Assembly (NCBI GenBank): GCA_963995525.1
Contig: OZ023205.1
Span: 57,328,098-57,392,097 of the forward strand
DNA: 64,000 bases
DNA from: Escarpia spicata
Lineage: Eukaryota; Annelida; Polychaeta; Sabellida; Siboglinidae
Direction of reading: 5' to 3'
In this document: positions 1 through 62,744 of the stretch, one piece after another
Layout: every line of letters begins with the position of its first letter
How positions within the stretch are numbered: the stretch's first letter is position 1
Notes under the pieces: model-generated
Seen by the model: the letters and a program-made list of their open reading frames with translations, nothing else
Databases searched by the model: none
What the model was told of the DNA's origin: nothing
Program-made: the position numbers and the translations under genes

Positions 1-1110
1 ACAACACCGACTTGACTGGTGGATGGTTGACTTGCGTGGTTCCAGCGCACATTATATGTATGTAACAAACAATATTCGTTTGACGCTCGATATGGTGCTT
101 CGTTTAACAGGTGATTTCAACAGTGGAACACACTATAGGATATGAAAAACAAATGCCGGAAAAGACAGCGTGAAGGGATAGCCATTGCAAGATGGCTTCA
201 AGCGGGAAGGAAGGTAGGGATTTCATTTGTTTAGAACGTCAAGAAGTTGTAGTCTGTTCAACATATTGCCTTTGGGTACAACAAGAAAATTGGTTATTGT
301 TGACAGTCTATTCACGGCGGCAAGCACGAGCGCGCAAGAAATGAACATGGTTATTGTGTTTAAGCTTAACCTTTGTATCGTACCATAATGTAGACACATA
401 TGTTGACATACACGTACATACGCACTGGCGTAATGTGTTCATAGAACATCTTGCCAATCGTAATGCAAATACACACACGCTTGTGCTTGGCTGGTTATAG
501 TTATATTGTTTGGCAGTGATCAAAGAACTAGAAACAAATGTATCGTTATTTAAGGCAAACAAAATTAATGCACGAGGTAAACATTGTTTAATGCTATGCA
601 CCACGGAGGAGTAAACACAAGTTCGAACACCATCTCTCTTCGTTATTAATTCACCATTAATACCGCACTGTGTATTATACTTGAACAACAGTTGTTGGTA
701 TAATACATAGACAATAAATATGATTTGATTTCTGGAATTTTCCCCACTGTACTGTGTGCGGCCATATTGGATTCACCCCCTATCGTCGTCAACGAATACT
801 ATCGATGAAATTGCATACATCAGAATACTTATAATAGATTAGTAATATTATTTATGCCGCATATACACACGTTTACTGCATCATATCATATAACATAACA
901 TATGGCCGAAGTTTTAATACCATTCTAACGAATAAATAACTTTAACAAGTGTAGATATGCAAGTTTAATTAATGTTGAAGTTCACACACCACAATTCCGG
1001 CTGCCTGTGTTTGGCTGGTTATATAAGGCAGTTAAAATGTCTATGTTAATTGCAGCTTGACGCGCTCAATATATAGGGTTATATCACGTGGCATGGATGA
1101 CCACACCGGT
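1..1110. other. No gene seen
   Basis: AT-rich sequence with frequent stops in all frames. The one longer open frame on the minus strand (308-688) has no recognisable motif or coding bias and looks like chance. No splice-flanked coding segment or repeat was recognised. Confidence 0.6.
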
Positions 1111-1112
1111 TA

Positions 1113-1340
1113 TGGGAACGCCGGGATGGCTTAGGGGCCGATATATACCCTCCCTTGCAGAGTGCTACCACAGGGAGTGGGTCAACTGTGAGAGATCAGG
1201 ATTGTGACACTACTCTCCAGAGTAGGGTTGTAAGGAGCTCCCAATGAGATGTCCCGAGCCGATCATTGGTACAGTTAGCTCTGTATCATAGGCAGTAACG
1301 GCTCCAGTGTCTCCCACTTCCGGATTCTCTCTTTTTGTTA
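1113..1340 (+). repeat. Possible LINE 5'-region remnant
   Basis: GC-richer than its surroundings. The stretch ending around 1310-1330 (GTGTCTCCCACTTCCGGAT) resembles 51145-51165, which lies in the 5' region of the minus-strand LINE at 47.8-51.5 kb. An imperfect CTACTCTCCAGAGTAG palindrome lies at about 1211. No open frame. Assignment to the same repeat family rests on short eye-matched blocks only. Confidence 0.22.
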
Positions 1341-1552
1341 AAAAAAAATTAACTTCAATGTTGCTGGGCCATTTTCAAGACCTGAAAAGTAAAGTGCATA
1401 ACATCTTACAGGTTCTTACACGTCCTCTTCTGGCTTGACTAGGGATTACAGTATCTGCCTCTGATGTGCCAACTCTCGCTTTTGACATATGCTCGGACTA
1501 TTTCCATGCGTCTGAGTGTGGAACAATCTAAGATATGAGTGGGGCAGTGTAT

Positions 1553-2245
1553 TTAGCTTCCATTGGGTGGTTTTGGTATAACATATATTTTTGTGTCAAA
1601 CGACTGGATCGGTGAAACGTCAACCACAGACTGTGGGAGACTGTTTCATACGCCTCTGCGTCGGTATATAAATGAGTTATTTCTAATATTTAATCGGCAT
1701 CTTTCTTTAAATAGTTTTAGGTGGTGCCCTTTCGTATGTGCTTCGTTGGCTCCCAAAGTAACAACATTTGACAAGACTGCTGGATCATATTTCCCTGTTA
1801 GTATCTTATACATTTCAATCATATCTCCCGTGTGGCGACTGTATAATAGAGTTGGTAATTTCAGTCTCTGTAAACGTTCTATCTATTCAAGGTCTTTGAA
1901 ACCAGGAATTAATTTGGTTGCTGTGCGCCGACCATTTTCAAGAGCTGTAATATATTTAATTAAGAATGGACTTAAAAGTTGTAGAAAAACACTTTTCATC
2001 GATGTGATCGAAAGTATGTCGGATTATCCCCATCATCGAATTGGTTTTTTTTTTCTTTCTGACATATATGCTTCAAAATCAAGCGATGGATCGAAAGTGA
2101 CTCGAATAACTTTCACATTGTCCGTACTTGTAAGTGTTGTCTGGTTGTTTCCCAATGAATAGGCTTTATTCCTTGTGAATAATGATCCAATTCTCATATG
2201 GATACATTTATGTGGATAAAATGTGATATTTACTCTTACTCGCAA
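1553..2245 (-). pseudogene. LINE reverse transcriptase C-terminal fragment
   Basis: Read on the minus strand, this encodes the C-terminal part of a non-LTR retrotransposon ORF2. A DPSLDFEAY block (usually preceded by DLGV) is followed by RRTATKLIPGFKDLE, LPTL, RHTGDMIEMYKILTGKYDP and RLNIRN, ending in NSLPQSVVDVSPIQSF before a natural stop at 1553-1555. Two in-frame stops break it: TAG where the family has Tyr after KDLE, and TGA where it has Trp before NSLP. There is also frame drift around 1960-2060. This matches the jockey/CR1-like group seen widely in fish and molluscs. Its 5' end (2167-2245) is also the first part of the 804-bp tandem unit next to it. Confidence 0.8.
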
Positions 2246-5200
2246 GTGCCTGTACAGAAGAAATAATTGTATGGTTTACAAATGCTGATGTACTGAAAAG
2301 AAGAACTAACTGGACTAAAACGTAAAATATAAAAACCACTCAACTCCACCACATGTTATAGCAATATCAGAAGTAAATTCTACACGTTTTAATAGACAAC
2401 TTACCACGCAGGAATAACACTTGGAATTGTATTATAAGGAAACTGTGAACATTAGTGAAGGCAAAGGCAGAGGGATGTTCTTGTTTATTCACCATTTGTT
2501 TGCATTTCAAGTACACCAGTTTGATGTTGAGTTGAATGAAGCACTGTTTTGCATTTTGGTACTGAAACGGAAGGATACCCTTTTGTTAGGCTCTTTTTAT
2601 AGAAGCCTTAACAGTACCATTGAGAACAATGACAACCTTAAGAAATTACTGGATACAATAACTGAGAAATGTTTTTCACATGTTCTGCTATTCTTGGAGA
2701 TTTCAACTACCCGTAGATTGATTAGTAAATAATTTAAACTACAGCAGCAAGTACTGAAGATAAATAATTTAAATTAATAAAATAAATCGAGACTGTTACT
2801 TGGTGCAACGTTTTATAGAGCCCACTAGAGGTAACGGTACAACTAAACCATCGCTCCTTGACCTTATAATCACTAGTGAATACCGAGATCTCAAGAGTCG
2901 AGACTCCATCAGCATTAGGAAGAAGCGACCAATCATTCAAAGCCAAGCTAAAATCATTAGGAAAAACAGATATTCCTTGTGAATAATGATCCAATTCTCA
3001 TATGGATACATTTATGTGGAGAAAATGTGATATTTACTCTTACTCTCAAGTGCCTGTACAGAAGAAATAATTGTATGGTTTACAAATGCTGATGTACTGA
3101 AAAGAAGAACTAACTGGACTAAAACGTAAAATATAAAAACCACTCAACTCCACCACATGTTATAGCAATATCAGAAGTAAATCCTACACGTTTTAATAGA
3201 CAACTTACCACGCAGGAATACAACTTGGAATTGTATTATATGGAAACTGTGAACATGAGTTAAGGCAAAGGCAGAGGGATGTTCTTGTTTATTCACTTTT
3301 TTTTTGCATTTCAAGTACACCAGTTTGATGTTGAGTTGAATGAAGCACTGTTTTGCATTTTGGTACTGAAACGGAAGGATACCCTTTTGTTAGGCTCTTT
3401 TTATAGAAGCCTTAACAGTACCACTGAGAACAATGACAACCTTAAGAAATTACTGGATACAATAACTGAGAAATGTTTTTCACATGTTCTGCTATTCTTG
3501 GAGATTTCAACTACCCGTAGATTGATTAGTAAATAATTTAAACTACAGCAGCAAGTACTGAAGATAAATAATTTAAATTAATAAAATAAATCGAGACTGT
3601 TACTTGGTGCAACGTTTTATAGAGCCCACTAGAGGTAACGGTACAACTAAACCATCGCTCCTTGACCTTATAATCACTAGTGAATACCGAGATCTCAAGA
3701 GTCGAGACTCCATCAGCATTAGGAAGAAGCGACCAATCATTCAAAGCCAAGCTAAAATCATTAGGAAAAACAGATATTCCTTGTGAATAATGATCCAATT
3801 CTCATATGGATACATTTATGTGGAGAAAATGTGATATTTACTCTTACTCTCAAGTGCCTGTACAGAAGAAATAATTGTATGGTTTACAAATGCTGATGTA
3901 CTGAAAAGAAGAACTAACTGGACTAAAACGTAAAATATAAAAACCACTCAACTCCACCACATGTTATAGCAATATCAGAAGTAAATCCTACACGTTTTAA
4001 TAGACAACTTACCACGCAGGAATACAACTTGGAATTGTATTATATGGAAACTGTGAACATGAGTTAAGGCAAAGGCAGAGGGATGTTCTTGTTTATTCAC
4101 TTTTTTTTTGCATTTCAAGTACACCAGTTTGATGTTGAGTTGAATGAAGCACTGTTTTGCATTTTGGTACTGAAACGGAAGGATACCCTTTTGTTAGGCT
4201 CTTTTTATAGAAGCCTTAACAGTACCACTGAGAACAATGACAACCTTAAGAAATTACTGGATACAATAACTGAGAAATGTTTTTCACATGTTCTGCTATT
4301 CTTGGAGATTTCAACTACCCGTAGATTGATTAGTAAATAATTTAAACTACAGCAGCAAGTACTGAAGATAAATAATTTAAATTAATAAAATAAATCGAGA
4401 CTGTTACTTGGTGCAACGTTTTATAGAGCCCACTAGAGGTAACGGTACAACTAAACCATCGCTCCTTGACCTTATAATCACTAGTGAATACCGAGATCTC
4501 AAGAGTCGAGACTCCATCAGCATTAGGAAGAAGCGACCAATCATTCAAAGCCAAGCTAAAATCATTAGGAAAAACAGATATTCCTTGTGAATAATGATCC
4601 AATTCTCATATGGATACATTTATGTGGAGAAAATGTGATATTTACTCTTACTCTCAAGTGCCTGTACAGAAGAAATAATTGTATGGTTTACAAATGCTGA
4701 TGTACTGAAAAGAAGAACTAACTGGACTAAAACGTAAAATATAAAAACCACTCAACTCCACCACATGTTATAGCAATATCAGAAGTAAATCCTACACGTT
4801 TTAATAGACAACTTACCACGCAGGAATACAACTTGGAATTGTATTATATGGAAACTGTGAACATGAGTTAAGGCAAAGGCAGAGGGATGTTCTTGTTTAT
4901 TCACTTTTTTTTTGCATTTCAAGTACACCAGTTTGATGTTGAGTTGAATGAAGCACTGTTTTGCATTTTGGTACTGAAACGGAAGGATACCCTTTTGTTA
5001 GGCTCTTTTTATAGAAGCCTTAACAGTACCACTGAGAACAATGACAACCTTAAGAAATTACTGGATACAATAACTGAGAAATGTTTTTCACATGTTCTGC
5101 TATTCTTGGAGATTCCAACTACCCGTAGATTGATTAGTAACTAATATCAACTACAGCAGCAAGTACTGAAGATAAATAATTTAAATTAATAAAATAAATC

Positions 5201-5386
5201 GAGACTGTTACTTGGTGCAACGTTTTATAGAGCCCACTAGAGGTAACGGTACAACTAAACCATCGTTCCTTGACCTTATAATCACTAGTGAATACATCGA
5301 GATCTAAAGAGTCGAGACTCCATCAGCATTAGGAAGAAGCGACCAATCATTTAAACCCAAGCTAAAATCATTAGGAAAAACAGATT
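2167..5386. repeat. Four tandem copies of an 804-bp unit
   Basis: The word TATTCCTTGTGAATAATGAT starts at 2167, 2971, 3775 and 4579, exactly 804 bp apart; the fourth copy ends near 5386 and has a 2-bp insertion. Copies 2 and 3 appear identical. Copy 1 differs from 2-4 only in its first half (GTGGATAAAA versus GTGGAGAAAA; CATTAGTGAAG versus CATGAGTTAAG; T/C at 2620). Copy 4 differs from 1-3 only in its second half (from C at the site matching 2703, then AGTAACTAATATC). The unit joins a minus-strand LINE reverse-transcriptase piece (first ~80 bp) to a plus-strand LINE endonuclease piece. Confidence 0.95.
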
Positions 5387-14959: not shown

Positions 14960-16760
14960 ATAGAAACGAGCGCAGTGGCTCGCAGCAGCATCTTAATTGT
15001 ATATTAGAGTGTGCACGTGTCTTTTACGACCAGCACGTGACTCCATACTTGTCAATGTGACGATGATAAAGAAAACGATAGGGCAGAACTATCGTCCAGT
15101 GGCAGACCAACGGATGTGGAATATTTTATGAAATATGTCCGATCAACAGTAACATTGAAGGCATTCCGGCAAACATCTAACTCACCTATTTTGCTTCTAA
15201 TATGGGATCGGGCAAGTATTTTGTTATAAAATGCCATTTTTGACCTAATACAAGTTTTTAATTAATATCTTGAATCTCATAATATTATACCTGTCCAAGG
15301 ACAACAACATATATATTTAGTACGCAAAAATAAGATGGATATGAATGGTAGTTTTCGAGATATCATGTTTTCAAAATAAGGTTTTAGCAGTTTAGCACCT
15401 GGCAGGAGACCAACAAACATAACAAAAATACAACTTAGGCAAATAAATAGATGAACACTTGGAAGATACATTTTATATGTAGGCATTAAAACAAGTTTCA
15501 TTGAGCTGTATTGTGTTGTTTGGTTTTTATCTGACTTTTTGTGAATGGGTTTCCTTTCCCTGATCACCTTGAGTCAGGGAAAATTGTCAAAACTATACAA
15601 CTGTTCTGGACATGAAACCAGAACATCCATTACAACATAATAAAGTAATTACATGAAGAAATAATGGGATATTTCTAATGTACTTTAGTTAAAAAGTTAA
15701 GTTCTGTAAGAAATATAGCTTACTTTGTATAAGTATAACTGCTTTTTATAAAATAACATTAAATTAAAACTATCTGTAGTCGCATATTTAACACAACCAC
15801 TGTTTCTTTGCAATTTTGTAAATTTGGATATTCGTTTTTAAATATATTAATGTACATTTCAAAATGATTTGGTCGTATAACAAAAGGAACAACCAGCCTA
15901 CGTTCTTATGAAAGTTATAACTAAATGTCGTCGATCTTGGCCCGCCGTCCATTCTACCATCGACATTACTTTATTATATGATATTATATTTGCTTTAATT
16001 TGACATATGTACACTATTTCCAAAGTAGAGTAAAAAATATATATTATTTAATAAATACGATTTTCCATGCGTATCCGTAGATCGTATGCACAATTTGAAA
16101 GTCGGCCTAAATAGCAACGACATGCCAACATAATTATTATCGCCGGTCGGACATGGTCGTAGTAGCATCTTTTGCCGACATTCCAGTTATTGACTAAATA
16201 TTTCGTAGTTCCCTAATCGTTTTTAACGTAACACATACATGTTACAGTATACATAAAACATATTCGATCATGTAAAGTGGGATAACAAACAGTGAAAATA
16301 GCACAAAGAATGTTGAGCAAAATATCAGTTAACGACGGGTATAGCATGCCCCTCACACCAAAGATCGACTTGTACTATAGCGCACATTGCTAAGGTTGTG
16401 TGGATCAGTCTATTTTATCGCGATGGGAGATCCACTTTTAACAGTAAACAAATACTCAAATTATTCGCTACGCGTTATCAATACAATATTATTTGTTGTG
16501 TAGATCATATTTATTTGCAATTAGGAACCACAATATACCGAAATATCTTGCATATGCATCGACAAAAATATTAGAAACGTAACTAACGGCACGAGTAGCG
16601 AGCGAGCTACCGGAGCCGCGCTAAGCGTCGGTACTCGGGTAAAATTCGCAAATCTTTCACCTTTCAAGTATCGGCGCGGCAACAATTTAATGTAGCTAGC
16701 CGCTCACCGCCCGATTGTCTACGCTGCGACGCATCTCGACGGTCGTAGGCAAATCGCGTA
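14960..16760. other. No gene seen
   Basis: Mostly AT-rich with short chance frames. A CpG-rich patch at about 16585-16740 (CGAGTAGCGAGCGAGC, CGCGGC) stands out from the base composition but has no clear open frame. Nothing else recognised. Confidence 0.5.
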
Positions 16761-16767
16761 TGATCGT

Positions 16768-17050
16768 AAAGGTAGGTAAAGCTAAGTTCTTATACAGCGC
16801 AGTATCCAGTCCTCAGGACTGCTCAGAGCACTTTACACTTTACTCCCTGGCAGACCTCTTCAATCGAACACCATCTCGACTTCTCTGGGACGAATATCCA
16901 CCACTGTCTATCGCATACAGCTGGGTGAACTGAAGCAATGTAGAATAAACGAACTTGCCCAAGGTTCGACACCGCCGCACTGGATTCGAACCCACGTTCT
17001 CTCAGTTGAGAGCCCTGAGCTTTTAAAGCTGCGCTACTGCGCTCTACATG
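16768..17050 (-). mobile_element. tRNA-derived SINE, minus orientation
   Basis: On the minus strand it opens with a tRNA-like head (GTAGCGCAGC A-box region, GGTTCGAATCC B box at 16982-16992), then GCGGCGGTGTCGAACCTTGG, TTCAGTTCACCCAGCTGTAT, a GTCTGCCAGGGAGTAAAGTG block, and ends GCGCTGTATAAGAACTTAGC. Same family as 22011-22328. Internally shorter than that copy. Confidence 0.88.
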
Positions 17051-17059
17051 AGCTAGTGA

Positions 17060-17594
17060 CTGGCCTACGACTGACCGCCGCACACCGGTTAGCTGTGACG
17101 CAACGAAGGGCAAATTGCCGTTAGAAACTATGTATTTGTTATGGTAATTACCAACAAATCAAGTCGAAAATATAGGCGTACATTTGTCTTGGTAAATTAG
17201 GCATAGTACAAATTAAAACAAATACATCACAATTATAATTGCAATTTTTAAATTGATAATGTCGATTATGATTACCATATGTGTCCTTTGTAAATAAATG
17301 TTGCTCGAACAACTTTATTATTTGCAATATTTTTAGAAGACGACTGTGCCAATACTGTTCATTGCAATACAATTTAGTACCGCTCATTGATTAAACGAAG
17401 TCATACCATTGAGAGTGGTGTGCATCGAGTTTTAACCAACTTTGAAGGCGTGATGCAGAGCCTGTTACAGAGTCGATTGTACACGATTACAATAGAGTGT
17501 CGTAGGAGGTCTATATAGCGTGCATGAGAGGAATGAAGACGGACAACTGTACAGTTTCCGAGAATCACATCGAAGAAGTTAATTATGCCTTCGA
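17060..17594. other. No gene seen
   Basis: AT-rich sequence between a SINE and the Tigger-like element. No coding or repeat signal recognised. Confidence 0.5.
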
Positions 17595-19553
17595 CCGATA
17601 TTGGACCAGTCGGGGTGTCCTATGTTGGACCACTGGTCCAATGTAAAACACCCGTGGTCCACTATACGTACCATCCCAACACACATGATATATGAAAATG
17701 TGTCATACTGAAGTTTCTGCATGTGTATATTAGACTCCTACGTATGGCCCGGTACCTTGTTGAGTAACAGGGGAGGCCTACATTTTTAATCACGGGGTAT
17801 ATTATTTTCTGAAATGTTCACTTTGTTTGACAGTTTTGCTGGAATATGCGGGAAACTAAAAAACAAATAATATTTGTTTCTTCAAAACGCCTCATTATTT
17901 TATTGATAATCACCACACCTTGCTTAAAGTTTGGTAGACATGGCTATTATTTTCACAGACAAGCAATAATGTGAAACTGCCTCTTATTATGTTATCAATG
18001 GTCAATAACTGCATATGTGGCACGTATACTTAACCCGTAGCAAGCATCATAAGTCGATCACGCTCATTTGGGCAAAAACATCCCGTATTCAAACCTAGCC
18101 CCTCCTGCCAGAACGACCAAAACTAAAACATGGTTTATTTAGTTTTAGATACAAAATACTATTATTATTATATTATATCATATCAATGACATACTTGGGA
18201 ATGTCGCATCTGTTTGATTGATTTAGGCTACAAATTATATTTTCCAGAGACAAAAACAAAATCGCTAATGGTCCAAGAAAGTATTTTGGTCGCCCTTGCA
18301 CTCTGCCGCCAGAGTTGGAGAACATGCTGGTGGAGCATGTTTTAAAACTGGAGAATATGCTGATTGGTATGACCAGGAAAGATTTGATGGATATGGCATA
18401 TCAGTTGGCTGAAGCGAATGGGATAAGGCATTGCTTTAACACTTAAAAACAAGCAGCTAGCAGACATTGGTAGCGTGATTTTATGAGGAGACACCCTGAA
18501 CTCTCCCTCCGTCAAGCCGAGGCAACTTCTATTACGAGAGCCAAAGGGTTTAATCGTGAGAGTGTGCATGAGTTCTACGATAAACTAGAAACTTTGGTTG
18601 ACACGTACTGATTCGATACTACAAACATCTTTAACGTGGATGAATCGGGTATAACAACTGTGCAGAAGCCTGGCCGGGTCTTTGGGAAAATAGGGAAAAG
18701 GCAAATCGGATCTCTTACTAGTGGTGAGAGAGAGAGGCTTTACTACAACAGTGGTGTGCAGCATGACTGCAGGGGGCAACTATGTTCCACCAATGATAAT
18801 TTTCAGGCGTAAACGCATTATAGAATCACTGGAAGCGTCAAAGTGAATAATGAATCAGGCTGGATGAACAAGGAACTCTTCGTCGTCTGGCTGAAGAACT
18901 TTGTATCTCATGTTGGCTGCACCAAAGACAAACATGTTCTGTTGATTTTTGATGGTCATTCGTCACACACGAAAAATACTGAAGCAATCCATTACGCCCG
19001 GGACCATGGAATCGTCATATTATATATTCCTCCACACACAACGCACCGTCTCCAACCCCTTGATCGGGTTTTCTATAAACCTGTGATGACCTATTACAAT
19101 GTGGAATGTGACACTTGGCTGAGGACCAAACAAACTACAGTCACCATCTCCTCAGTCTGTCGTATCTTCGGAAGGGCATACGTACGCTCTGTTTCCATGG
19201 TAACTGCTGCCAATGGTTTCAAGTGCACAGGCATTTGGCCTTGTGATCGGAACATATAGACTAATGCAGATTTCGCCGCGGCTGGAAGGTTTAAGTTGTC
19301 CTACTCGGAAACTGGTATAGATGTTCCATCGAATTCTGCCTGAGATGCCACTGTGCAGAATGACAATTCGTCAAATACAACAACCTCGTCCGCGAGCGAG
19401 CAACAGTCCAACAACCGAAGCCTGTCCACGTGCGACCGACAGTCCAATGATCCATGTCCGCCCACAAACAAGTAACAGCTCAATGAGCTGAGCTCATCCA
19501 CAAGCACCAGGCAGAATAATTTCAGGCATGTCACAACCAACCCATGCCCATCA

Positions 19554-20348
19554 GTGAGAGATCAACAGTCTAACAAACCTAGCCTGTCCGCGAATGAGCA
19601 ACAACAGTATAATGACCCAAGCCCGTCTACAAGCGAGCAACAATCCAACAACCAAAAGCTGTCCACGAGAGAGCAACAGTCCAATGATCCATGCCCATCC
19701 ACAAGCAGCAGACAGAGTGGTTTCAGGTGTGTCGCAACCAATGCAGATGGACGTTGTTTCTTCCGAGTCGTTGTTATTTGTCAAGATCTCGATATGCAGC
19801 ATGCAGAAAGAGACAACGATGGCAATTTAAAGGACCTGCGAATGAGAATGCGAGAAATGACTTCCGCTGATGCGCTACGATCCAACACGATTGTACATAT
19901 GCTAGACAACGTTGGCCTTTATGAAAACTTTGATGAGAGGAAGGTGAACGCAGATCTACCTCAGAGACTGTGCTATGCATCTATCGAGGACAGAATCGCA
20001 TCAATGGCGAATCCCAGTGAAATTATTGGGGATATAGAGATCGTTGCAACGGCACGCTGTCTACAACGACCAGTGCATGTCTGCGTTGGAGAGAGTGTAC
20101 TTGAATTTGGGACGGAATTTCAGGAGTCTGGTGCAATTATGCTCAAATACATAAATCTGAGTGAAGATGCTGGTCATTGTGAAGCATTAGTCCCAATCAC
20201 GGGGCAGCTTACTGATCAACCAGAGCTGGTTAGAAAGGTCACCACTCCTGCAATCATGTCTCCCATCCCAAAACCAGCGATTTCTAGGGTCAAGAGAAGA
20301 ACCACCAAGTCGGAAATCATAAACTCCAGTCCCTATAAAAAACTTTAA
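19554..20348 (+). CDS. OTU-like cysteine protease part of the transposon frame
   Basis: The longest intact piece of the fusion frame (264 codons). The first ~55 residues are low-complexity repeats of EQQSN/STSEQQ. The OTU signature follows: ATNADGRCFFRVV with the nucleophile Cys at codon 19755-19757, a helical MLDNVGLYENFDERKVNADL, IEDRIASMANPSEIIGDIEI (the W-G-x-x-E-like segment), and GHCEALVP with the catalytic His at 20175-20177. OTU proteases cleave ubiquitin chains. In transposons they are known from some Helitrons and retroelements, where the role is unclear. Cys and His are kept although the transposase upstream has stops. The start is arbitrary because the frame is open upstream only to the TAA at 19473. 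It probably was never a separate gene. Confidence 0.75.
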   Translation: MRDQQSNKPSLSANEQQQYNDPSPSTSEQQSNNQKLSTREQQSNDPCPSTSSRQSGFRCVATNADGRCFFRVVVICQDLDMQHAERDNDGNLKDLRMRMREMTSADALRSNTIVHMLDNVGLYENFDERKVNADLPQRLCYASIEDRIASMANPSEIIGDIEIVATARCLQRPVHVCVGESVLEFGTEFQESGAIMLKYINLSEDAGHCEALVPITGQLTDQPELVRKVTTPAIMSPIPKPAISRVKRRTTKSEIINSSPYKKL

Positions 20349-20630
20349 CAACAAAAGTCAAAAGGCACAAAAGTAGGCATAACTCAACAGTTGGCAAAAC
20401 AAATAGAAAGACAACAGATCCAATTAAGAAAAAAACGAAAAAAACGGCAGCTTTCTCCTGCCAGCCAAAACGAAAAAAGCGGTCAATGTGACAACGAATC
20501 TTGGTAATGTGTACTGTGTAACGAACAACGAAAAGAAACCATGGTGAAATATGTATACTGTGGGATATGGATACATATGAATTGTGCTGGTGGCCTGCCC
20601 TATAACTATCGATGTGACATGTGTCAGTAA
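20349..20630 (+). pseudogene. Basic linker and PHD-finger end of the transposon frame
   Basis: Same frame after the TAA at 20346: a K/R/Q-rich stretch (QLAKQIERQQIQLRKKRKKR, a likely nuclear localisation signal), a TAA at 20505, then C-x2-C (CVLC), C (YC), H-x2-C-type HMNC and CDMC, spaced as in a PHD finger of about 38 residues ending at the TAA at 20628-20630. A comparable C-terminal zinc-binding domain is familiar from jerky/Tigger-like transposases. Confidence 0.7.
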
Positions 20631-21066
20631 AAGATCGTATTCCTAATTTGGTGATCAGGGACCATCAATTACCGACTGGTATCTTTTTGTCATTATTAGA
20701 CACTCTACTGGCCATTATTCCGTTGGTTTGTTCGTTTATCCGTGACAGACTCTATCATGGCAATCACTTCGTTGGCGTATTCTTCTATTCGTGACAACAT
20801 ATAATAGTTTGTTCTCAGTTCATAATTAAATTGTGTCAAATCTATTTGGCGTTTAGTCGTCACATGTCATTTGTATGCTCATTGGAACGCCGTAGTTTTC
20901 GTGATTTATGAATTAAGCGACTATCTTCTTATAAGTCTGAAGTGGGTGCTGAACCTTGGTTTCTTTCAAAGCATCAAGACAGATGACGTATATCGAACCA
21001 GAAGCACCTATATTGGACCACCTGGTCCAATATCAGGACCACTGTAGTCCAATATATGTCACCCGT

Positions 21067-22000
21067 TACCAATTACGAAAAACACTTTTTTACATTTTGT
21101 GGAAAAAAAATAACAAATGCATTGACCCTATTTCCTGCTTGCACACAGAGCTTGTAGTAACTCGTGGCCTGATCCTTGATAATCCTCGATATCACGTACA
21201 GGAATGGAGAAAGATTGCTCGGAAGTTAGGTGTTCAATATCGGTGCACTTTCCCAACGCAATTAACGAGTGAAAACAATCGATATGGCTATAACAGAGGG
21301 TTGTCTTTCTCAAGACAAACGCACAGACGGTGCTTGTTTAATAAATCCTTCATATGCTTGAGCGTGTTGACAAGACGGCATGCTGATATGGACATTGCGC
21401 GTCTTCAGGTTCAACAGCAGTCACGTGGGCACGGAGGCTCGCAGGCCAGGTTAAGAAAATGGTGGGGAGGCGATCAAGTGGCGCCACGATGCGTAATTTT
21501 GGTGACCCTCTTCGAGTGACAAATGTTCGGGTTTTGATCGATGCAAGTGTATATTTTATAAGGAAGCGTTTACGCATGTAGGACGCATGTGACGAAGTTT
21601 GGCGGCTCTATGTCGTCGTTTTGATGGTTAGGTGAGAAAGTAAAAGATCGTCCTCATCCCCCTCTCCTGTTATTTTATGGGTCACTTTCACTTCTGGTCT
21701 CATCACAGGGAAATGGGAAAACAGCCTTTTATTGGTTAGTCTACTGACTTTTTCTACAACCGAAACTCTTATGCGAGTGCGAAACACCAAAAGGTGTGGT
21801 TTGCTTCCACTTAATTAAATGGTGCTATTGGGAATCTTCATTGTGAACATAGAACATAAATAAATACAGTAGATCCACACAAATTATATATAACGGGCGC
21901 TGCGTGTGATTTCAACCAGGGTAGGGGGCAATTGAAATAGGTGCGGTAACACAGCCCTGAAGACTGTATAAATACTATTCATGGTTTACAATCAGCATGT
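21067..22000. other. No confident gene
   Basis: An open plus-strand stretch at 21140-21520 includes DNPRYHVQEWRKIARKLGV, vaguely like the middle of a death domain, after an acceptor-like TTTCCTGCTTGCACACAG. No donor or partner exon was found and the C-terminal part is unlike any family I know. Otherwise nothing recognised. Confidence 0.3.
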
Positions 22001-22010
22001 TGCATTGTGG

Positions 22011-22328
22011 AGTAGCACAGGGGTAAGACCTCCAGACTCTCGACTGAGTAAATGCGGGTTCGAATCCAGTGCGGCGGTGTTGAACCTTGGGCAAGTTCGT
22101 TTACTCTACATTGCTTCAGTTCATTCAGCTGTATGAATGAGTACCTGGCTATGGACAGTAGTGGATATTTGTGTACGAATAGTCTTCGTGCATTAATTGC
22201 AGTGTGGCTGAATGCTTCCCAGAGAAGTCAAAATGGTGTTTGATTGAACAGGTCTGCCAGGGAGTAAAGTGTAAAGCGCTTTGAGCAGTCCTGAGGACTG
22301 GATACTGCGCTATATTAGAACTTACCTT
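22011..22328 (+). mobile_element. Full-length tRNA-derived SINE with 11-bp target duplication
   Basis: The element has a pol III A box (TAGCACAGGGG, 22013-22023) and a perfect B box (GGTTCGAATCC, 22057-22067), a central conserved domain (TTGGGCAAGTTCGTTTACTC, GTCTGCCAGGGAGTAAAGTG, GCGCTTTGAGCAGTCCTGAG) and a 3' end GCGCTATATTAGAACTTACC. It is flanked by TTGCATTGTGG at 22000-22010 and 22329-22339. The clean duplication fixes both ends and implies LINE-mediated insertion. Other copies: 16.8-17.05, 40.7-40.9 and 62.7-63.0 kb. Confidence 0.95.
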
Positions 22329-22339
22329 TTGCATTGTGG

Positions 22340-23691
22340 TCACATATTTTGCAGACTATGACTTATTTGTTGAAATAAAACATTTCATTGTCACAGACAC
22401 ATAATAATATTGACGCAATAATAAACAGTTCAAGTCCATTATAACGTGACTTATCGAGTAGTTTTTATTCAAACATAATTTCTGTAGTGCATACAACATA
22501 CAGGAGCTAGCTGTTAACATGACGACATCGATCTACCACTAGTGGCCGTGAAAGACAACGCTGCGGCCCACACGCTGTTTGATGTAGATTTGCCTAACTC
22601 GCTGCAGTGGCAAAGACACGCATAACAATGTGGTGTGATGTCACAACAAACATTCTGACCAATGAGTGGTATTTACCAAAACACCATGCTGGGCTTAAAG
22701 TAAAACAAATATACATGAACGATTTTGAAGTATGTACACTTCAAGTTACCTCATTATGGTACAACTAACTGCATATACTTTAAAAATAGTCTAAGTTAAT
22801 TAAACTACCATAACATTGATCACTTGTTAAATGGAATGGTGACATTGACCTTCAATGAATTCTGGACCACAGTACACCGCTGAGCAAATACCAAATGTGA
22901 CTCGTACACATGTTGTACCATCACGTACACACAGTAGAGCAATCAAGTGAGACAATGGGTGTATGGTCAACGTAATTATACAAATAAATAACGATGTTTA
23001 CAGATATGAAATTATACCATATACATCATACACATAGAGAACATATAATGCTAAATAATACAAACAATTATTACCATATATACCCGGTACTAAAACATCT
23101 AATTTTCCTTGTAACATCGCAAATACTGATTGTGACATATTCTGCTAATAGAGAAATTAATAGCTTGTTAACATCGCTTCTCAATTACAGTATTTTTTAA
23201 TATACATAAAAAAAACTGTTCTAAACATTCCAAAGCAATGACGTTTTATGTTAAAATTTAACCGGTTATACAAATGTTGGAGTATGCGTATTTTAGTAGC
23301 TGCATATTTACCATAAATTAGCAACATCTGCCATAGATAGTAACCTCACATGGTAAACGTGAATGACACATGAAGACATAACACAGCAAAGCAATAACGC
23401 ACGAGACACAATAAATAGGCAGTTCAACAAAAAATCTCTTTCGTTCTACGCAATGATTTTTTCAACACAGACTAACTTAAACCGAAGAACATAATCATCC
23501 CCCTAATGCATCCTTCAATGTTAAAACAGCAAGTGAAACACAGCTGTCATCAAATCAATGACATTTAGCATAAATTGGATCAAATTTCAAAAAAGAAAAC
23601 AACATGGATAATGTTCAGCCTAACACGATCCAACAGTGAATGAGATAAGTGACCAGAAATACACCACCAAAACACAAGTTAAAACAAACCA
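22340..23691. other. No gene seen; possible 3' UTR in the right part
   Basis: AT-rich sequence. If the minus-strand terminal exon ending at 23692 is real, its 3' UTR runs leftwards into this region, but I saw no convincing minus-strand polyadenylation signal in a favoured position. Confidence 0.4.
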
Positions 23692-33714: not shown

Positions 33715-34100
33715 ATGGTCAGTTATCACGGTATTGTAATGGTGTTCATGGCAACCGTCTCGGTGAAAAGTGTCAAGGGAACCCAATTTTTATGTGAGTA
33801 TCTTCATAACTAGGGCCGATATAGTGAAATAAAGGGTATTTGTCACCATTTTTGGAAGTTGTTACTTTAGTACTATTACGCTAACATGAATTATACAATA
33901 ACCAGTAATCATAAGTGTGTGCTTTGTTCTCCTATATAACGGTAAATAGTTCTACATAGTCTTCAAGAAATCTCAGCGTTTTGTTGAATGGTTGTGTCGT
34001 TGGGACAACGTATGTGGTGGGGTAGTTTGGGAGAGTGATCCTAGCTATAGAGCAGCACAGGCTTTGCGGCACAAAGTATGTACAGTAAAACCTGTCTTAG

Positions 34101-34990
34101 TGGTCTGTTGGAACTTGGTCAGGACATGTTATGATTTAATAGTGTTACACGTTCTGTTGTATCTATAGTGGTCTGCTGTGACTACGTCAGGGCATGTTAT
34201 GATTTAATAGTGTTACACGTTCTGCTGAGTCTGTAGTGGTCTGCTGTGACTAGGTCAGGGCATGTTATGATTTAATAGTGTTCCACATTCTGTTTAGTCT
34301 GTAGTGGTCTGCTCTGACTTGGTCAGGGCATGTTATGATTTAATAGTGTTACATGTTCTGTTGTATCTGTAGTGATCTGCTGTGACTTGGTCAGGACATG
34401 TTATGATTTAATAGTGTTACATGTTCTGTTGTATCTGTAGTGGTCTGCTGTGACTTGGTCAGGACATGTTATGATTTAATAGTGTTACATGTTCTGTTGT
34501 GTTTGTAGTGGTCTGCTGTGACTTGGTCAGGACATGTTATGATTTAATAGTGTTACACGTTCTGTTGTATCTGTAGTGGTCTGCTGTGACTTGGTCAGGA
34601 CACGTTATGATTTAATAGTGTTACATGTTCTGTTTGATCTGTAGTGGTCTGCTGTGACTTGGTCAGGACATGTTATGATTTAAAAGTGTTACATGTTCTG
34701 TTGTGTCTGTAGAGGTCTGCTGTGACTTGGTCAGGACATGTTATGATTTAATAGTGTTACACGTTCTGTTGTATCTGTAGTGGTCTGATGTGACTTGGTC
34801 AGGACATGTTATGATTGAATAGTGTTACACGATCTGTTGTATCTGTAGTGGTCTGCTGTGACTTGGTCAGGGCATGTTATGATTTAATAGTGTTACATGT
34901 TCTGTTGTACCTGTAGTGGTCTGCTGTGACTTGGTCAGGCCATGTTATGATTTAATAGTGTCACGTCCAGTTGTTTCCATAGTGGTGGTC
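34101..34990 (+). repeat. 68-bp satellite, about 13 tandem copies
   Basis: The phrase TGGTCTGCTGTGACTTGGTC recurs every 68 bp from 34101 to 34917. Each unit continues AGGACATGTTATGATTTAAT then AGTGTTACA and TTCTGTTGTATCTGTAG. Units differ by a few substitutions. The regularity is exact (12 x 68 = 816). Confidence 0.96.
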
Positions 34991-40690: not shown

Positions 40691-40937
40691 TAGCTTGGGC
40701 AAATTCGTTTACTCTACATTGCTTCAGTTCACTCAGCTTTATGAATGATTACCTGGCTATAGACAGTGGTGGATATTTGTTTACGAATAGTTTCCCACAT
40801 TAATTGCAACGTGGCTAAATTCTTCCAAGAGAAGTCGAGAGGGTGTTCGATTGAACAGATCTGCCAGGGAGTAAAGTGTAAAGCGCTTTGAGCTGTCCTG
40901 AGGACTGGATGCTTCGCTATATAAGAACTTACCTTAC
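40691..40937 (+). mobile_element. tRNA-derived SINE, 5'-truncated
   Basis: Begins at TTGGGCAAATTCGTTTACTC, so the tRNA head is missing. It keeps the central CTGCCAGGGAGTAAAGTG and GCGCTTTGAGC blocks and ends CGCTATATAAGAACTTACC. Same family as 22011-22328. Confidence 0.92.
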
Positions 40938-41465: not shown

Positions 41466-44377
41466 CTATGTGTATCCCGCCCGTCTGAGGTATGTGTCGA
41501 TTTTATTTTTAAACATATTCACGCTACTAGCACCCACACAATCAACAGGTAATCTGTTCCATTCATTTACAGTCCTTTGTGAAAATGAAAACTTTCTTAT
41601 ATCCAATCTACTCTGCTCCTTTGCTAATGCAAGATCATGTCCTCTAGTCCTTCTATCTTTCTTAACTGAGAAAAACATATTTCTATCAATATTTTCATAA
41701 CCCTTCAATATTTTAAACACTTCTATCTGATCTCCTCTCAATCTCCTGGACTCTAGTGTTGTTAAACCGCATTTTTTTAGGCGTATTTCGTAACGAAGAT
41801 CCTTCAGATTTGGTCTCATTTTAGTTGCTCTCCTCTGCACTCTTTCTAGCATATCTATGTCCTTCCTGCGATATGGCCTCCACGCTTTAATACAATATTC
41901 TAAATGAGGCCTAACTATTGTTTTGTACAGCGGTATTATTAGCTCTTTTTCCTTATACGTTATGTTTCGCCTAATTAATCCAAGGATTTGATTTCCCTTT
42001 GAAGCTGCAATTCCGCACTGCTCTGAAATCTTCATATCAGCACTAACGGTTAACCCTAAGTCTTTTTCTTTTACAGTAGTACTTAGTATAGTACCCCCCA
42101 TTGTATATTATACTTCTTCGTTCCCATGTCCTATGTGGAGGCATTTACATTTCCAAAAATTGAACATCATTTGCCACTTTTCAGACCATTTGATCAACCT
42201 GTCAAGATCATCTTGTAAATGCTGTCTATCTCCATCACTTTTAATCCTTCTAAACACTTTTGTATCAACCGCAAATTTCAACACCTTGCTTGTTATTTCA
42301 TCATCCAAATCGTTGATGTATATTAAGAATAATATAGGACCTAATACTGATCCCTGTGGTACCCCACTCAATACCGATTTCCAGTTTGAAGCCTCCCCAT
42401 CAACTACTACACGTTGTCTTCTGTCAATCAGCCATTGTTCTATCCAGTTTATTATACCATTTCGTATGCCATGGGCCTTTAGTTTAAGCAGTAATCTTTG
42501 ATGTGGTACTTTGTCAAAAGCTTACAATCTAAGTAGACGATATCTACTGGTGATCCCTCATCTACCCACTTAGTGATGTCTTCCAAAAAACATAACATAT
42601 TTGTTAAGCATGACCTCGCTTTAAAAAAACCATGTTGAGATGGGTTTATCAAGTTTTGTTTAACAAGAAAATCCTCCATGTGATCTTTAATTAGTCTTTC
42701 TAATAATTTACAAATCACTGATGTTAAACTCACTGGTCTATAGTTCTCTGACTTGTTTCTCGAACCTTTTTTGAATAACGGTATAATGTTTGCTTCTTTC
42801 CATTCTAAAGGAACCACTCCCTCTTCTAATGACAAGTTGAAAACTGTTGCAAGTGGTATGCTAATTTGTTCTACAATTTCCAATAATAGTTTGGGTGGAA
42901 TACCATCCACTCCAGGTGATTTATTATCCTTCATAGCCCTTATTTTCTTAGCTACCATTTCCGGGGTTACAATTAATTGTCCTAAATAGTCTGAATCTGC
43001 CCCCTTGAACTTAGCCTCTGGTATTGGCAGTGAACTAATATCTTCCCTGGTAAACACTGAACTAAAGTACTCATTCAGGTCTTCTGCCATTATGAATCCC
43101 TCTGATATTATATTTCCAGCACTATCTTCTAGAGGACCGACCATATCTTGAACTTTCTGTTTGCTTCGAACATACGCATAAAAACTCTTGCTGTCATGTT
43201 TTATATTACTAGCTAATTGTTGTTCATAGCTTCTCTTTGAATTTCTCATTTCAGCTGTAGCTTGGTTAAGTGCTTCTTTATAATTGTTGTAGTCTTCATC
43301 ATTTCCAGTACATCTATATGACTTCCACATCATTTGTTTATACTTAATTTTTCTAATGGCTTCTTTCGATAAGTGTTTCTTTTTGGACCGTTTTCCTTGT
43401 TTTTTGAAGGGTACAAATTTATCGATTATGCACTTAATTTCACTCTTTAATATATTCCAGCATTCTGTTGCCGTCTTATTTTTTAGTGTCTTATTCCAGT
43501 CTATCTTTGCTAAATATTTCCTCATGTCCTTATACCTTCCTTTGTAGAAATTTCTCCTATACTGCTTTTTGCTATTCCTTTCTGATTTTACTTTGATGGT
43601 AAAATGTATCTGGTTGTGATCGCTACTCCCCAGTGGCTCACATATCTTGACATTGTCAACTAATTCATTCTGTGAGGACAAAACTATGTCTAACACATTC
43701 TCACCCCTGGTTGGTTCTACCACATGTTGAGAAAGGAATGTATCTTGAACTAAAACTAAAAACTTGTGGTCCTCTCTCCCCATACTCTGTAGAGATTTCC
43801 ATTGTATATGCCCATGGTTAAAATCCCCCATAATAATACAGTCCCGTTTGCTTACTTCCCTTATAGCGTTTTGTATTTTTTCATTCTCTTCTATGCTTAT
43901 GTTTGGACTTCGATAAACTAACCCAACTGTTAACGTTGAGTTTCCTGTAACTATGTTACACCAAACAGCTTCTTCGCAATCTGCTTCTCTTTCTAATTTT
44001 ATTTCATAAGCCTGAATAGATTCTTTAATATATAAAATAACTCCACCCCCCTTTCTTCCTATTCTATCTTTTCTAAACATTACTTATCCTGTCAGTCCCA
44101 TTTCAGCATCTGATATATCGGTGGTGGTCCAGGATTCGGTTATACCTATTATATGAGGGTCAATATCTTCTACCATAATGTTTAGTTCATTTCTTTTGTT
44201 TACTATACTCCTTGCATTTAAACAAACACATTTATATCCAGCTTCAGAAGAGTTTTCCAGACTGTTATTTGTTGATTTATTTGTGCTGTCCTTACCTATG
44301 CCTCCATTTTCTCTCAACAGATTGCAGCTGTTTCTCTGAGAAAACTGCTGCCCCCTTTCCACTAAGATGGAGGCCAT
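41466..44377 (-). pseudogene. CR1 ORF2: endonuclease and reverse transcriptase
   Basis: Endonuclease motifs: CLNARSIVNKRNEL, IIGITESW (catalytic Glu), RSPNISIEENE, IIMGDFNHGHIQW, EPTRGENVLDIVLSS, SSDHNQIHF. RT motifs: KSPGVDGIPPKLL, EWKEANIIPLFKKG, NYRPVSLTSVICKLLER, SQHGFFKARSCLTN, IVYLDCK, SGVPQGSVLGPILFLIYIND, then FAVDTKVF where FADD is expected, and a CR1 C-terminus (LVRPHLEYC-like block, RRATKMRPNLKDLRYEIRL, NEWNRLP). Lesions: TAA at 44086-44084 before MFRKDR, frameshift near 42528 inside the LDFQKAFD motif, Asp-to-Val at 42269-42267, and TAA near 42108. Start chosen at MASILVERG, overlapping the end of ORF1. Would have made the target-primed reverse transcription enzyme. Confidence 0.93.
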
Positions 44378-47767: not shown

Positions 47768-50700
47768 CATCCTGCAGTCTCGTAAGACTATGGATCTGTG
47801 CCCTGGTGTCGAAGATCAGTTGTTGGCTTGGCAGCGTTTGTTGTGGCTGTAGAGGCCAATTCTTGAGTGGCAGTCTTTATTGCATATGCTGCACTTGAAG
47901 GTGCTCTCGGCTCTGTTCTCGGCATGGGTGTTTTTTTTCTGCGGTTGCGTTTTTCTTTTGCTAGCCTGCGGAGAGTATCCTCTCCTCTTTTGAGACCCCT
48001 GTGTAGTTTCTGCCTCCATGTGGATCGATCTCCAGCAAGATCTTCCCAGTTGTCAACATATATGTCTAGTGCCTTCAAGTCGCGCATGCATACGTCCTTG
48101 AAGATCAGCTTTCTTTTCAGTGGCCAGCTCACCGTAGAGGATATCTTTTGGAAGTCTCCCATCTTCCATCGGATGAACAAGGCCGAGCCAGCGGGGACGG
48201 CGTTGCCTGAGCATGGTCACCAGGCTTATAGACTTGGCACGTGAGAGGACCTCTGTATAGGGGACTCGGTCCTTCCAGGAGATCCCGAGGATGCGCCGCA
48301 AGCAGCGCATGTGAAATGAGTTCAGTCGATTCTCCTGAGTGGAGTACATCGACTCACTACCGTACAGAAGTGTACTCAGAAGCTAGGCGTTGTACACTGT
48401 CACCTTTGTGTGCTCTGTCAGCATTTTGTTATTCCACACTCTCCTTGCGAGCCGGGCAAGTGTTGAGGCCGCTCGCCCAATCCTTCTGCTGATTTCTGCT
48501 TTTAAGGAGAGGTTGTCAGCAACGGTGGACCCGAGGTAGGTGAAGAGGTGGACGACCTCTAGCTCATAATTGTTTATGGTGATGGCTGGGGGAGTGATCA
48601 AATCCTACCTCATGATGTTAGTCTTTCTCAAGCTGACTGTCAGTCCGAAATCCATGCATGCGTTTGCAAAGCGGTTTATGAGGTTTTGTAGCTCGTCCTC
48701 AGTATGCGTGATGACTACTGCATTGTCCGCAAACGGAAAGTCTCTGACGAGGGCCAGGCGCATCTTGGTCTTCGCCTTTAGGCGAGCCAAGTTGAATAGT
48801 TTTCCGTCAGATTTCGTGTGCATGTACACTCCCTCAGTCGAAGATCCAAAGGCGTGCTTCAACATAAGGGCAAAGAATATCGCAAAGACGGTTGGGACGA
48901 GGACGCATCCCTGTTTGACGCCACTGGTAACCTTAAAAGTCTCAGAAGTAGAACCGTCATACAGGATTGTACCTCTCATATCATCGTTGAATGAATTGAT
49001 TATGCTGCAGAGTTTTGGGGGGCATCCTATCTTCGGTAGGATCTTGAACAGATCATCCCTGCTCACAAGGTCGAAGGCTTTGGTAAGTTCGATGAAGGCA
49101 ATGTGCAGCGGCTTCTTCTGTTCCCTGCACTTCACATGTAACTGTCGAAGCGAAAAGATCATGTCACTAGTTGATCTATTTGCTCTGAAGCCACACTGAA
49201 AATTATGGGTAGAATCTGTCAGCGAGTATGTGTAGTCTGTTCAGGAAGACACGATCAAACAACTTGCCAACTAACCCCAGGAGTGAGATGCCTCTGTAAT
49301 TGTTACAATCACTCATGTCTCCTTTGTTTTTTGTATAGCGTGACGATGTTGGCGTCCCTCATGTCTTGCGGCATGGCCCCTTCACTCCAGCACTAACAAA
49401 GAAGTACGTGTAGGGGTTTGAGTAGGGTTCTCTTGCCGCACTTGATGATTTCGGGTGGAATCCCATCGCCTCTAGGTGCTTTTCTACTGGAGAGGTTGTC
49501 AATAGCCTTGCTGAGTTCGTCGATGGTTAGTTCCTCGTCCAGCTCCATTAAAATGGGTAGATATTCTATGCCACCCATGGCTGAGCTGGTGACAGCATTC
49601 TCTCAGTACCCTACCCACCTCTCCATTAGATTTTTCCTGTCATGGATCTGCTTGCCTGTGGAGGACCTTAGGGGAGTTGTCTTTCTTGATGCCGCTATAC
49701 GTGGCCCCAGTGTTGCCTGTATTAGCTGACCCTTGTATGTCCTTGCATATATGGTGCCAGTATTCGTTCGCACAACGCCTAGCAGTCTGCTGGACTTTGC
49801 TTCTGGCTGTTCGGAGTGTCTGGAGGGTTGCTTGGCTGGGTGAGCGCTTGTGTTATTCAAGGTCTGCGCGCTTGGCCTCGATAACTGAAGTCATGACACT
49901 GCAGTTAACCTCGAACCAATCATTTGTCTTCCGTGACTTCTTCTTTTCAAAGACTGCTGATGCCAGTGCTTTGATCGGGGGTGTCTCCAAGATGTATTGT
50001 GTCGGGGCTTCGTCTGAAAGAAGGAGTTGGTGATGCAGAGGTCGAATTGGAGCACAACTAAAGAAGTTGCTGTCCACACTAATTTATCTTGCCGACTCCG
50101 TGATGTCCCAACTGACTGGCCAGGCGACATGATCGGCTCCCACCCTTGCGTTGAAGTCACCCAACAGCAGCAGGTGTTTCTGTGGCGGTATGTGGCTGAT
50201 GATGAAATCCAGGTTTCCATAAAACTCATCTTTGGCTTCTGATGTTGAGTACATGGTTGCCGCATACACATTGATTATGTTGACAGGGCCGTCAGACGTT
50301 TGAAGACGGAGCGAGACGAGTATTTCAGATCCGTTTCCGTCAGGCTCTATCATCCCTATCAGTTTGTTCTTGACTGCAAAGCCTACGCCCTGCTCTCTTG
50401 TATCGTCGAGTCCCTTGCCTTGCCAATAGAACGTGTGGTCCCTTTTCCTCAAAGACCCTGATTCGGCCAGGCGTGTTACTTGGAGTGTGGCGATGTCGAC
50501 ATCAAACTTTTTGAGCTCGTTGTTAATGACTGCAGTCTTTCGGGCGTCACTGATGTCATGGAGGTCCTGTGAGATGCCTGTCGTCATAGTACGAATGTTC
50601 CAGCATCCCAACTTCATAGACGATTTCCTTTTCCGGTTCCGGTCCGTTTTCCTTTTCATTGTCTGTTTTGTACTCTGTCTTGTGTTGCTTAGTGCAGGGA

Positions 50701-53330: not shown

Positions 53331-53379
53331 ACGAGACGTCGATTTTTACTGAGGCAAACCACAACAGAGAAGCTTCGAA

Positions 53380-62259: not shown

Positions 62260-62740
62260 CTAGCACCCACACAATCAGCAGATATAGGAGAGAAAACATC
62301 AATGAGATTTGATAATTCGTCTCCTCTTTCGATATCACGATGCTATTGCCGAACGGCAACAACGGACACGTATCAGTACCCCAGAATAAACCCTGAAAAT
62401 CTGGACACATATGTATAGGCCTACTACTCAGAGCTCGCAACAGAAAGGTAATTGTTCATATCTTCCATTAAGATATCGACGACTCGTCGTTAGCTATATA
62501 TTCAATGAGCTAGCTTATTGAATTGCCATGCGACTCCGCGAAACTCAGGACGACCTCCAAGGAGTTCGATCTGTCGCATGCATTTGCCGACGGAACTGTA
62601 CCCTCGTCTGATCAAACAAGCCAAGCGCACATTGCAATCTGTTTGACACAGCATACCACAGCGTTCGCTTTATTTTATGTCCAAAAACAACATTCCGTGT
62701 ACTCTTTGTAAAATATATGTTCTTTTATAACATGGCATGC
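62260..62740. other. No gene seen
   Basis: Begins with a short remnant resembling CR1 minus strand (CTAGCACCCACACAATCA, 62260-62278). The rest is unrecognised. Confidence 0.45.
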
Positions 62741-62744
62741 AGTC

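Follow-up and report, generated by a model that had tools for sequence, protein, structure and literature searches.

Can a cut-and-paste transposon encode, within a single polypeptide, both the transposase that moves it and a protease of the kind that removes ubiquitin? The question is raised by a locus of the annelid Escarpia spicata in a stretch of 64,000 nucleotides of contig OZ023205.1 (positions 57,328,098 to 57,392,097), hereafter the window. A preliminary description made from the sequence alone had placed a Tigger/jerky-type transposase, an OTU protease domain and a PHD-like finger in one reading frame between clusters of inverted motifs, and knew of no OTU domain in a pogo/Tigger-type transposase. 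Likewise, none was found in the open-access literature, subscription papers and Repbase entries lying outside its scope. Deubiquitinases in other transposons are already known. Ginger1 transposons carry OTU or Ulp1 proteases, with a PHD finger next to Ulp1 in Ginger1-9_HM (PMC2836005), and Helitrons and Helentrons carry OTU or VTD deubiquitinases (PMC9741609; PMC4067079 for the Helentron OTU). Here the carrier is a pogo-like transposase, joined to a domain of the OTU deubiquitinase type and to a PHD-like finger.

The fused frame and its intact relatives

On the forward strand of the window, a single codon phase (18222-20627) leads from a HTH_Tnp_Tc5 helix-turn-helix domain through a DDE_1 transposase core, a repetitive linker and an OTU domain to a PHD-like finger (Table 1). 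The four motifs of the preliminary description all lie in this frame (NVDESG at 18633, DGHSSH at 18951, DGRCFF at 19746 and GHCEA, given there as GHCEAL, at 20172), its coordinates hold, and the catalytic Cys and His of the OTU that it regarded as retained are present. The common codon phase that it described proved correct. The frame is not open, nine in-frame stops being found (18444, 18471, 18609, 18810, 19257, 19341, 19473, 20346 and 20505).

Intact counterparts exist elsewhere: transposase, OTU and finger occur together in six stop-free proteins from other sources (P0002, P0004, P0005, P0009, P0027 and P0032; 805-890 amino acids), which span the open frame that had been proposed as a test. 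Of 561 candidates in a search with the read-through of the OTU part, three proteins reached E ≤ 0.001, namely P0001 (479 amino acids), whose first residues belong to the end of the transposase and which continues to the OTU and finger, P0002 (855 amino acids), which contains helix-turn-helix, DDE_1 and OTU domains and is colinear with the window over residues 52-855 (E = 5e-133), and P0003 (1096 amino acids), in which a homologous OTU and finger follow a different N-terminal part. With the tail of P0002 as query, a single further protein out of 1887 candidates, P0004 (805 amino acids), passed the same limit (E ≤ 0.001), and the transposase of P0004 retrieved 1006 proteins at E ≤ 1e-5, 120 of which were listed. 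Among these 120, an OTU profile of our own building detected the domain in ten, against six with a precomputed OTU; the carriers with a named host are P0026 from Biomphalaria glabrata and P0038 from Babylonia areolata, both gastropods. The ten, the window, P0001 and P0002 constitute the 13 OTU rows of this transposase compared below. In Pfam, P0002 exceeded the cut-offs for helix-turn-helix and DDE_1 families and P0004 those for DDE_1 and HTH_psq, with HTH_Tnp_Tc5 below; no Rep or helicase family was listed for P0001-P0004. The comparisons show a single predicted protein in the order HTH_psq, HTH_Tnp_Tc5, DDE transposase, disordered linker, OTU, SSPYK motif and PHD-like finger.

For P0003, the only Pfam families at E up to 0.5 were OTU and PHD, none falling in its first 840 residues; by eye, its motifs GHGKG and SDGP..QY look transposase-like. 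The precomputed domains of P0084 (Callosobruchus chinensis, 837 amino acids) include PF13843 as well as DDE_1, which gives the impression of two kinds of transposase in one predicted protein. Viral contigs searched with P0002 gave five pattern matches, none of them confirmed.

Copies in the same genome

The genome of E. spicata itself (1.06 Gb in 1097 contigs) was searched with the window OTU, and at least 150 matches were listed from 520 candidates, 102 at 94-100% identity (the window included) and 48 at 80-89%. In the divergent class 25 copies were inspected (L039-L058 and L059-L063). The transposase lies directly upstream on the same strand in 18 of the 20 copies L039-L058, and at least part of the finger lies downstream in 18, L041 and L054 showing only the residues that precede it; all three parts are present in 5/5 of L059-L063 and in each of the 30 best near-identical copies. 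L058 is a fragment without upstream transposase, and L056 keeps both element ends, the OTU and the finger around an internally deleted transposase. One copy, L039, is open from transposase to OTU: a run of 723 codons without a stop starts in the latter half of the psq helix-turn-helix and continues through the OTU, the finger lying in a different frame. Transposase copies devoid of the OTU, the outcome that would have spoken for a nested insertion, were not seen: the transposase part gave 123 matches, and in those sampled that had no OTU among the 150 listed, an OTU stood at the expected distance in seven of seven.

The stop-riddled window copy alone could not exclude that an OTU-bearing element had inserted by chance into or next to a transposase copy, but the intact fused proteins, together with a transposase-OTU order that is the same in all own-genome copies inspected except L056 and L058, exclude it and leave this explanation a vanishing probability. 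That the fusion represents a real family is practically certain. Families of DDE_1 elements without an OTU also occur in this genome, since the eight best own-genome DDE_1 loci (L001-L008), far relatives at 26-30% identity to P0002, showed no OTU match within the 3.5 kb of each; they have open frames of 414-515 codons with no stops inside the domain, three share identical scores, and they are possibly a younger OTU-less family.

Domains and damage of the window copy

Pieces of the window frame exceeded the Pfam cut-offs for DDE_1 (55.6 bits, cut-off 22), HTH_Tnp_Tc5 (25.1 bits, cut-off 22.2) and OTU (26.1 bits, cut-off 23.3). At E up to 1, the transposase piece matched only DDE_1, DDE_3, HTH_Tnp_Tc5 and two sub-threshold DUFs, and no Gypsy-type integrase core was detected in it. 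The three acidic residues of the DDxD triad are all kept, in columns of the core that are nearly invariant among 40 relatives (D165, D274 and D311 of P0005, each at least 90% conserved in the alignment).

The OTU of the window is recognized as an OTU cysteine protease by both profile and fold, the modelled fold being OTUD3-like. The window has the catalytic Cys, the His and the acidic or amide partner, as do the aligned rows (12/12); directly behind the catalytic His it carries a Cys, where the remaining OTUs of the alignment (11/12) have Tyr. The aligned OTUs are 31-52% identical to that of the window, with catalytic residues and fold kept. Similarity to cellular deubiquitinases is remote: identity to OTUD3, OTUD1 and yeast Otu2 is only 14-21% over the aligned residues, solely yeast Otu2 chains fell below E 0.001 in the profile search, and phmmer with the 290-residue open frame gave no match in the PDB.

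The finger follows in position and phase as had been described, although taken alone it matches no PHD model (best zf-RING_2, E = 0.098) and has lost one ligand; we call it PHD-like from its alignment to relatives. The third zinc ligand, Tyr in the window, is Cys in 29/30 near-identical and 22/22 other comparable copies. Seven OTU-bearing relatives show the C4HC3 pattern; the PHD profile scores of P0001, P0002 and P0003 (19.9, 16.1 and 19.4) all stay below the cut-off of 24, and a precomputed PHD-type domain is present in 14 of the 120 listed relatives, none of them OTU-bearing.

The window copy is dead, with nine stops, its left end and N-terminal helix lost and one finger Cys gone. An intron before 18250, where a splice-acceptor-like stretch stands, was considered and rejected: in the sister copy on contig C8 (L065), blastn matches window 16620-18255, passes 125 unmatched bases and resumes at 18250, and because this sister has the missing N-terminal codons in place, their absence here is a deletion.

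Table 1. Features of the element copy in the window.
Feature	Window position	Strand	Remarks
Decayed element copy	17431..21254	+	Delimited by independently inserted copies; left terminal inverted repeat missing
Left subterminal cluster, inverted TTGGACCA motifs	17593..17675		86-96% kept in other copies
Deletion point	18250..18257		About 125 bp (N-terminal psq helix-turn-helix) absent relative to the 98.6% identical C8 sister
HTH_Tnp_Tc5 DNA-binding domain	18309..18512	+	PF03221, residues 30-97 of the read-through; stops 18444 and 18471 inside
DDE_1 transposase core	18633..19277	+	PF03184, best stretch 18849-19133
DDE_1 acidic residues	18639 (NVDE), 18951 (DGH), 19059 (QPLD)	+	35 residues between the last two
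Ser/Gln/Pro-rich linker	19389..19714	+	Degenerate repeats, spacing about 36 nt; modelled as disordered
OTU cysteine protease domain	19722..20195	+	Inside 290-codon open stretch 19476-20348
OTU catalytic residues	Cys 19755-19757, His 20175-20177, acidic residue 20181-20183	+	
SSPYK motif, SEIINSSPYKKL	20310..20345	+	Common to most transposase relatives, with or without OTU
PHD-like finger	20508..20627	+	One Cys ligand replaced by Tyr; stop at 20505 just before
Right subterminal cluster, inverted TTGGACCA motifs	20982..21060		Motif and repeat searches, blastn of copies
Right terminal inverted repeat, TTCAATATCGGTGCACTTTCCC	21232..21254		Flanking TA of other copies lost here

Element ends

In blastn of the 25 inspected own-genome copies, ten (L039, L042, L043, L045, L048, L051, L052, L054, L056 and L057) share the window borders 17430-17431 and 21250-21257, which give the limits of the element. 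Extended copies read GGGGAAGTRCACCGATATTGGACC ... GGTTCAATATCGGTGCACTTCCCC with TA immediately outside each end, and the terminal inverted repeats measure 24 bp. Among the 12 copies inspected for their ends, seven carry the left repeat (GGGGAAGTRCACCGATATTG...) and all 12 carry its reverse complement on the right-hand side; TA flanks both sides in 7/7 copies with both ends found, and the right end is followed by TA in 12/12 other copies inspected. The copies with both ends measure 3667, 3851, 3954, 4176, 4199 and 4257 bp, and the deletion copy L056 2860 bp, giving a full element of about 3.7-4.3 kb in this genome.

The clusters of inverted TTGGACCA motifs reported around the transposon are indeed there; they are subterminal and do not form its ends. 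With the clusters taken as ends, the limits would be 17601 and 21052, and these were rejected in favour of the copy borders 17431 (truncated) and 21254. The motif occurs seven times in the window against 2.36 expected, a number reached in none of 100 shuffles, and six of the seven occurrences fall within 17601-21030. Alignment of the two cluster stretches scored 58, a test that is weak by itself since 500 shuffles reached up to 55. The motif TTGGACC recurs in the left terminal repeat and the subterminal clusters, and these repeats would fit binding sites of the predicted transposase.

A TA duplication, short terminal inverted repeats, helix-turn-helix and DDE_1 domains and a DDxD triad together assign the element to the pogo-like branch of IS630-Tc1-mariner, as a DNA transposon of the cut-and-paste type; 'pogo-like' refers to these features, the transposase trees described below having contained no reference Tigger, pogoR, Passer, Lemi, Mover or Fot.

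Amplification of the dead copy

Recent and active jumping of this element might be read from the 102 of 150 listed OTU matches that are 94-100% identical. The near-identical copies, however, have the same stops and frame breaks as the window and are embedded in a longer unit that is itself repeated: the start of C8 matches window 1-2505 at 98.6% identity (compared over C8 1-21500; L064 and L065), and sequence further into C8 matches window 16620-22524 at 98.6-98.7%. Recent activity of the window copy was thus rejected, and we regard such jumping as highly improbable. Because an identity of about 98.6% extends far beyond the element, a much larger unit has been copied; the dead transposon was carried along within this amplified unit, which is at least 22 kb long. 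Many of the listed OTU matches sit 17-22 kb from a contig start. Telomere repeats were considered at the start of C8 and rejected, its first 3000 bases containing one TTAGGG and no CCCTAA.

Probable acquisition of the OTU domain

Most OTU-less relatives end in the same finger (70/110 by pattern) and carry the SSPYK pattern in their tail (66/110, and 9/13 of the OTU-bearing rows), so that transposase-SSPYK-finger was probably the older plan, into which the OTU would have been inserted between transposase and SSPYK. In P0002, unlike the other OTU rows, the OTU lies between SSPYK and the finger, and the addition perhaps took place more than once.

In a tree of 122 transposases, 12 OTU rows fall inside one set of 19 [Shimodaira-Hasegawa-like approximate likelihood ratio test (SH-aLRT) 96], and the distribution of the OTU requires five changes, a number to which none of 500 shuffles (mean 11.7) came down; the window belongs to an all-OTU set of seven (95), beside P0064 and P0111. 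A tree of 36 rows, built with more care, places all the OTU rows but P0002 (11/12) in a set of 16 (81/90); P0002 stands outside, beside the OTU-less P0115 (90/90). A single clade of all 12 OTU rows on the transposase tree was rejected (approximately unbiased test, p-AU = 7.8e-9). The nested OTU-less rows P0013, P0007, P0102, P0016 and P0021 break off within the linker, short of the OTU position, and are perhaps truncated or disrupted in frame. The last 40 residues of P0102 (TRRQVFFFQ...) resemble the start of an OTU in another frame, so that this row may be a frame-broken OTU carrier. With five possibly truncated rows and the long branch of P0002, the OTU may have been gained once or several times.

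In the tree of the OTU domain itself, the window joins P0001 (95/91) and then P0002 (89/84), and P0003 joins P0004 (90/91). The OTU data do not quite reject a union of the window with P0111 (p = 0.063), the transposase data reject one with P0002 (p = 0.020), and taken together these results hint that elements may have exchanged the OTU. The two positions in the pogo-like chain (P0002 versus the others), together with the different large protein P0003, also suggest a bolder reading, possible but rather doubtful at present, in which OTU and finger form a mobile tail, ubiquitin eraser and chromatin reader in one, captured repeatedly by unrelated transposases as a general counter-measure against host ubiquitin control. 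If so, the transpososome would sit on chromatin marked for the finger and deubiquitinate targets at that place, such as histones or repair factors.

Possible function of the fused protein

The domain composition suggests that the element may act on the host ubiquitin system while moving. The role proposed in the preliminary description, a change in ubiquitin signalling that could for example stabilise the transposase, would be in keeping with this. In intact copies, the OTU is likely to be an active deubiquitinase. The helix-turn-helix domains would bind the terminal and subterminal repeats bearing TTGGACC, the DDE core would cut and join at TA, and the finger may dock the protein on chromatin. 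Acting in cis, the OTU could free the transposase itself, or local proteins of chromatin and repair, of ubiquitin or a ubiquitin-like tag; this would prolong the life of the transposase or favour repair of the cut. We regard this overall reading, a pogo-like element with a single fused protein and local deubiquitination, as reasonably probable; that the OTU works mainly in cis is a more tentative proposal, favoured over action in trans on the host.

Several observations weigh against this reading. By pattern, the finger is present in only 7/13 OTU rows and lacking in P0006, P0026, P0038, P0064, P0111 and the window, P0064 and the window being visibly damaged. The invariance of the catalytic Cys is partly one of choice, because possession of the word DGRCFF decided which sequences seeded the OTU alignment; the seeded profile found no OTU without this Cys among 124 sequences. 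Constraint among the own-genome copies is not demonstrated, since the ratio of nonsynonymous (dN) to synonymous (dS) substitutions in the OTU is only mildly low, as expected for mostly dead copies (pairwise mean dN 0.060, dS 0.089, ratio 0.68; 0.46-1.58 for copies versus the window); values for the transposase region (0.75-1.60) are spoiled by frameshifts. Finally, the OTU and transposase trees disagree (Mantel r = 0.32, with 212 of 2000 permutations as high), so the two parts were not simply co-inherited.

Among the alternatives, action in trans survives best. The OTU would then blunt a ubiquitin-dependent defence or damage response throughout the cell, fused to the transposase for co-expression only, in keeping with the recurrence of OTU and other deubiquitinase domains in mobile elements of unrelated kinds (Ginger1, and Helentrons that carry OTU or VTD), with the homologous OTU and finger that P0003 carries behind its 840 unassigned residues, and with the loss of the transposase from L056. 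That copy, however, resembles an ordinary internal deletion, and one chain uniting DNA-binding and finger domains argues for local action, so that we consider trans action rather unlikely. Capture of host segments by transposons and the weak constraint just described would also allow the OTU to be a captured passenger or an inactive module, for example a ubiquitin-binding one, with no protease role; this is improbable in view of the catalytic residues and fold kept across OTUs that differ widely from that of the window, and of the joining of the domain at two positions of the chain.

Comparison with known systems

The fused protein resembles those of pogo and Tigger elements in its HTH_Tnp_Tc5 and DDE_1 domains and DDxD triad, and the element resembles them in its TA duplication and short inverted repeats (PMC7386202; PMC9219625; PMC7325037). 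It differs in an N-terminal HTH_psq, where the pogo-derived genes tabled there have CENP-B_N, in the C-terminal OTU and finger, and in a length of about 800 amino acids, compared with 532-575 for intact molluscan Tigger (PMC9219625); neither OTU nor PHD occurs as a word in the main text of any of the three. Like Ginger1, the element joins a cut-and-paste transposase to a C-terminal OTU protease, but the Ginger1 core is of the Gypsy-integrase type, with zinc finger, DDE and GPY/F, rather than DDE_1 with a Tc5-type helix-turn-helix and TA duplication (PMC2836005). A transposon-borne OTU with conserved catalytic residues is shared with Helentrons and Helitrons, which are rolling-circle Rep/helicase elements (PMC9741609; PMC4067079); the DDE_1 protein with its fused OTU, the inverted repeats and the TA duplication set the present element apart from them. 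In PMC6875170, the abbreviation OTU denotes an operational taxonomic unit.

Whether transposons make use of deubiquitinases has been asked for Ginger1 (PMC2836005) and for Helitrons (PMC9741609), and according to the latter source the OTU domains of transposons had not been assayed for activity. A further transposase type with a captured deubiquitinase would point to convergent selection. Tc1/mariner-type transposases are workable in cell assays. An OTU in the same chain, together with close OTU-less relatives, would make the question directly testable.

Other features of the window

Short interspersed nuclear element (SINE)-like repeats flank the element in opposite orientation (16778-17038 and 22011-22329), with further copies at 40694-40935 and 62707-62985. 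Rfam and ARAGORN scans of the window gave no match. Self-comparison showed that 2167-5385 consists of tandem copies of a unit of about 804 bp, 97-99% alike, and a 68-bp tandem repeat occupies 34098-34986 (13.1 copies, 91% matches). On the reverse strand, pieces of non-LTR (long terminal repeat) reverse transcriptases were recognized by eye at 41466-44083, where 42479-44083 forms an open stretch of 534 codons, and at 48605-49240. A forward-strand open stretch of 240 codons at 52734-53456, with zinc-knuckle-like and protease-like motifs by eye, is perhaps a gag-protease piece of an LTR retroelement.
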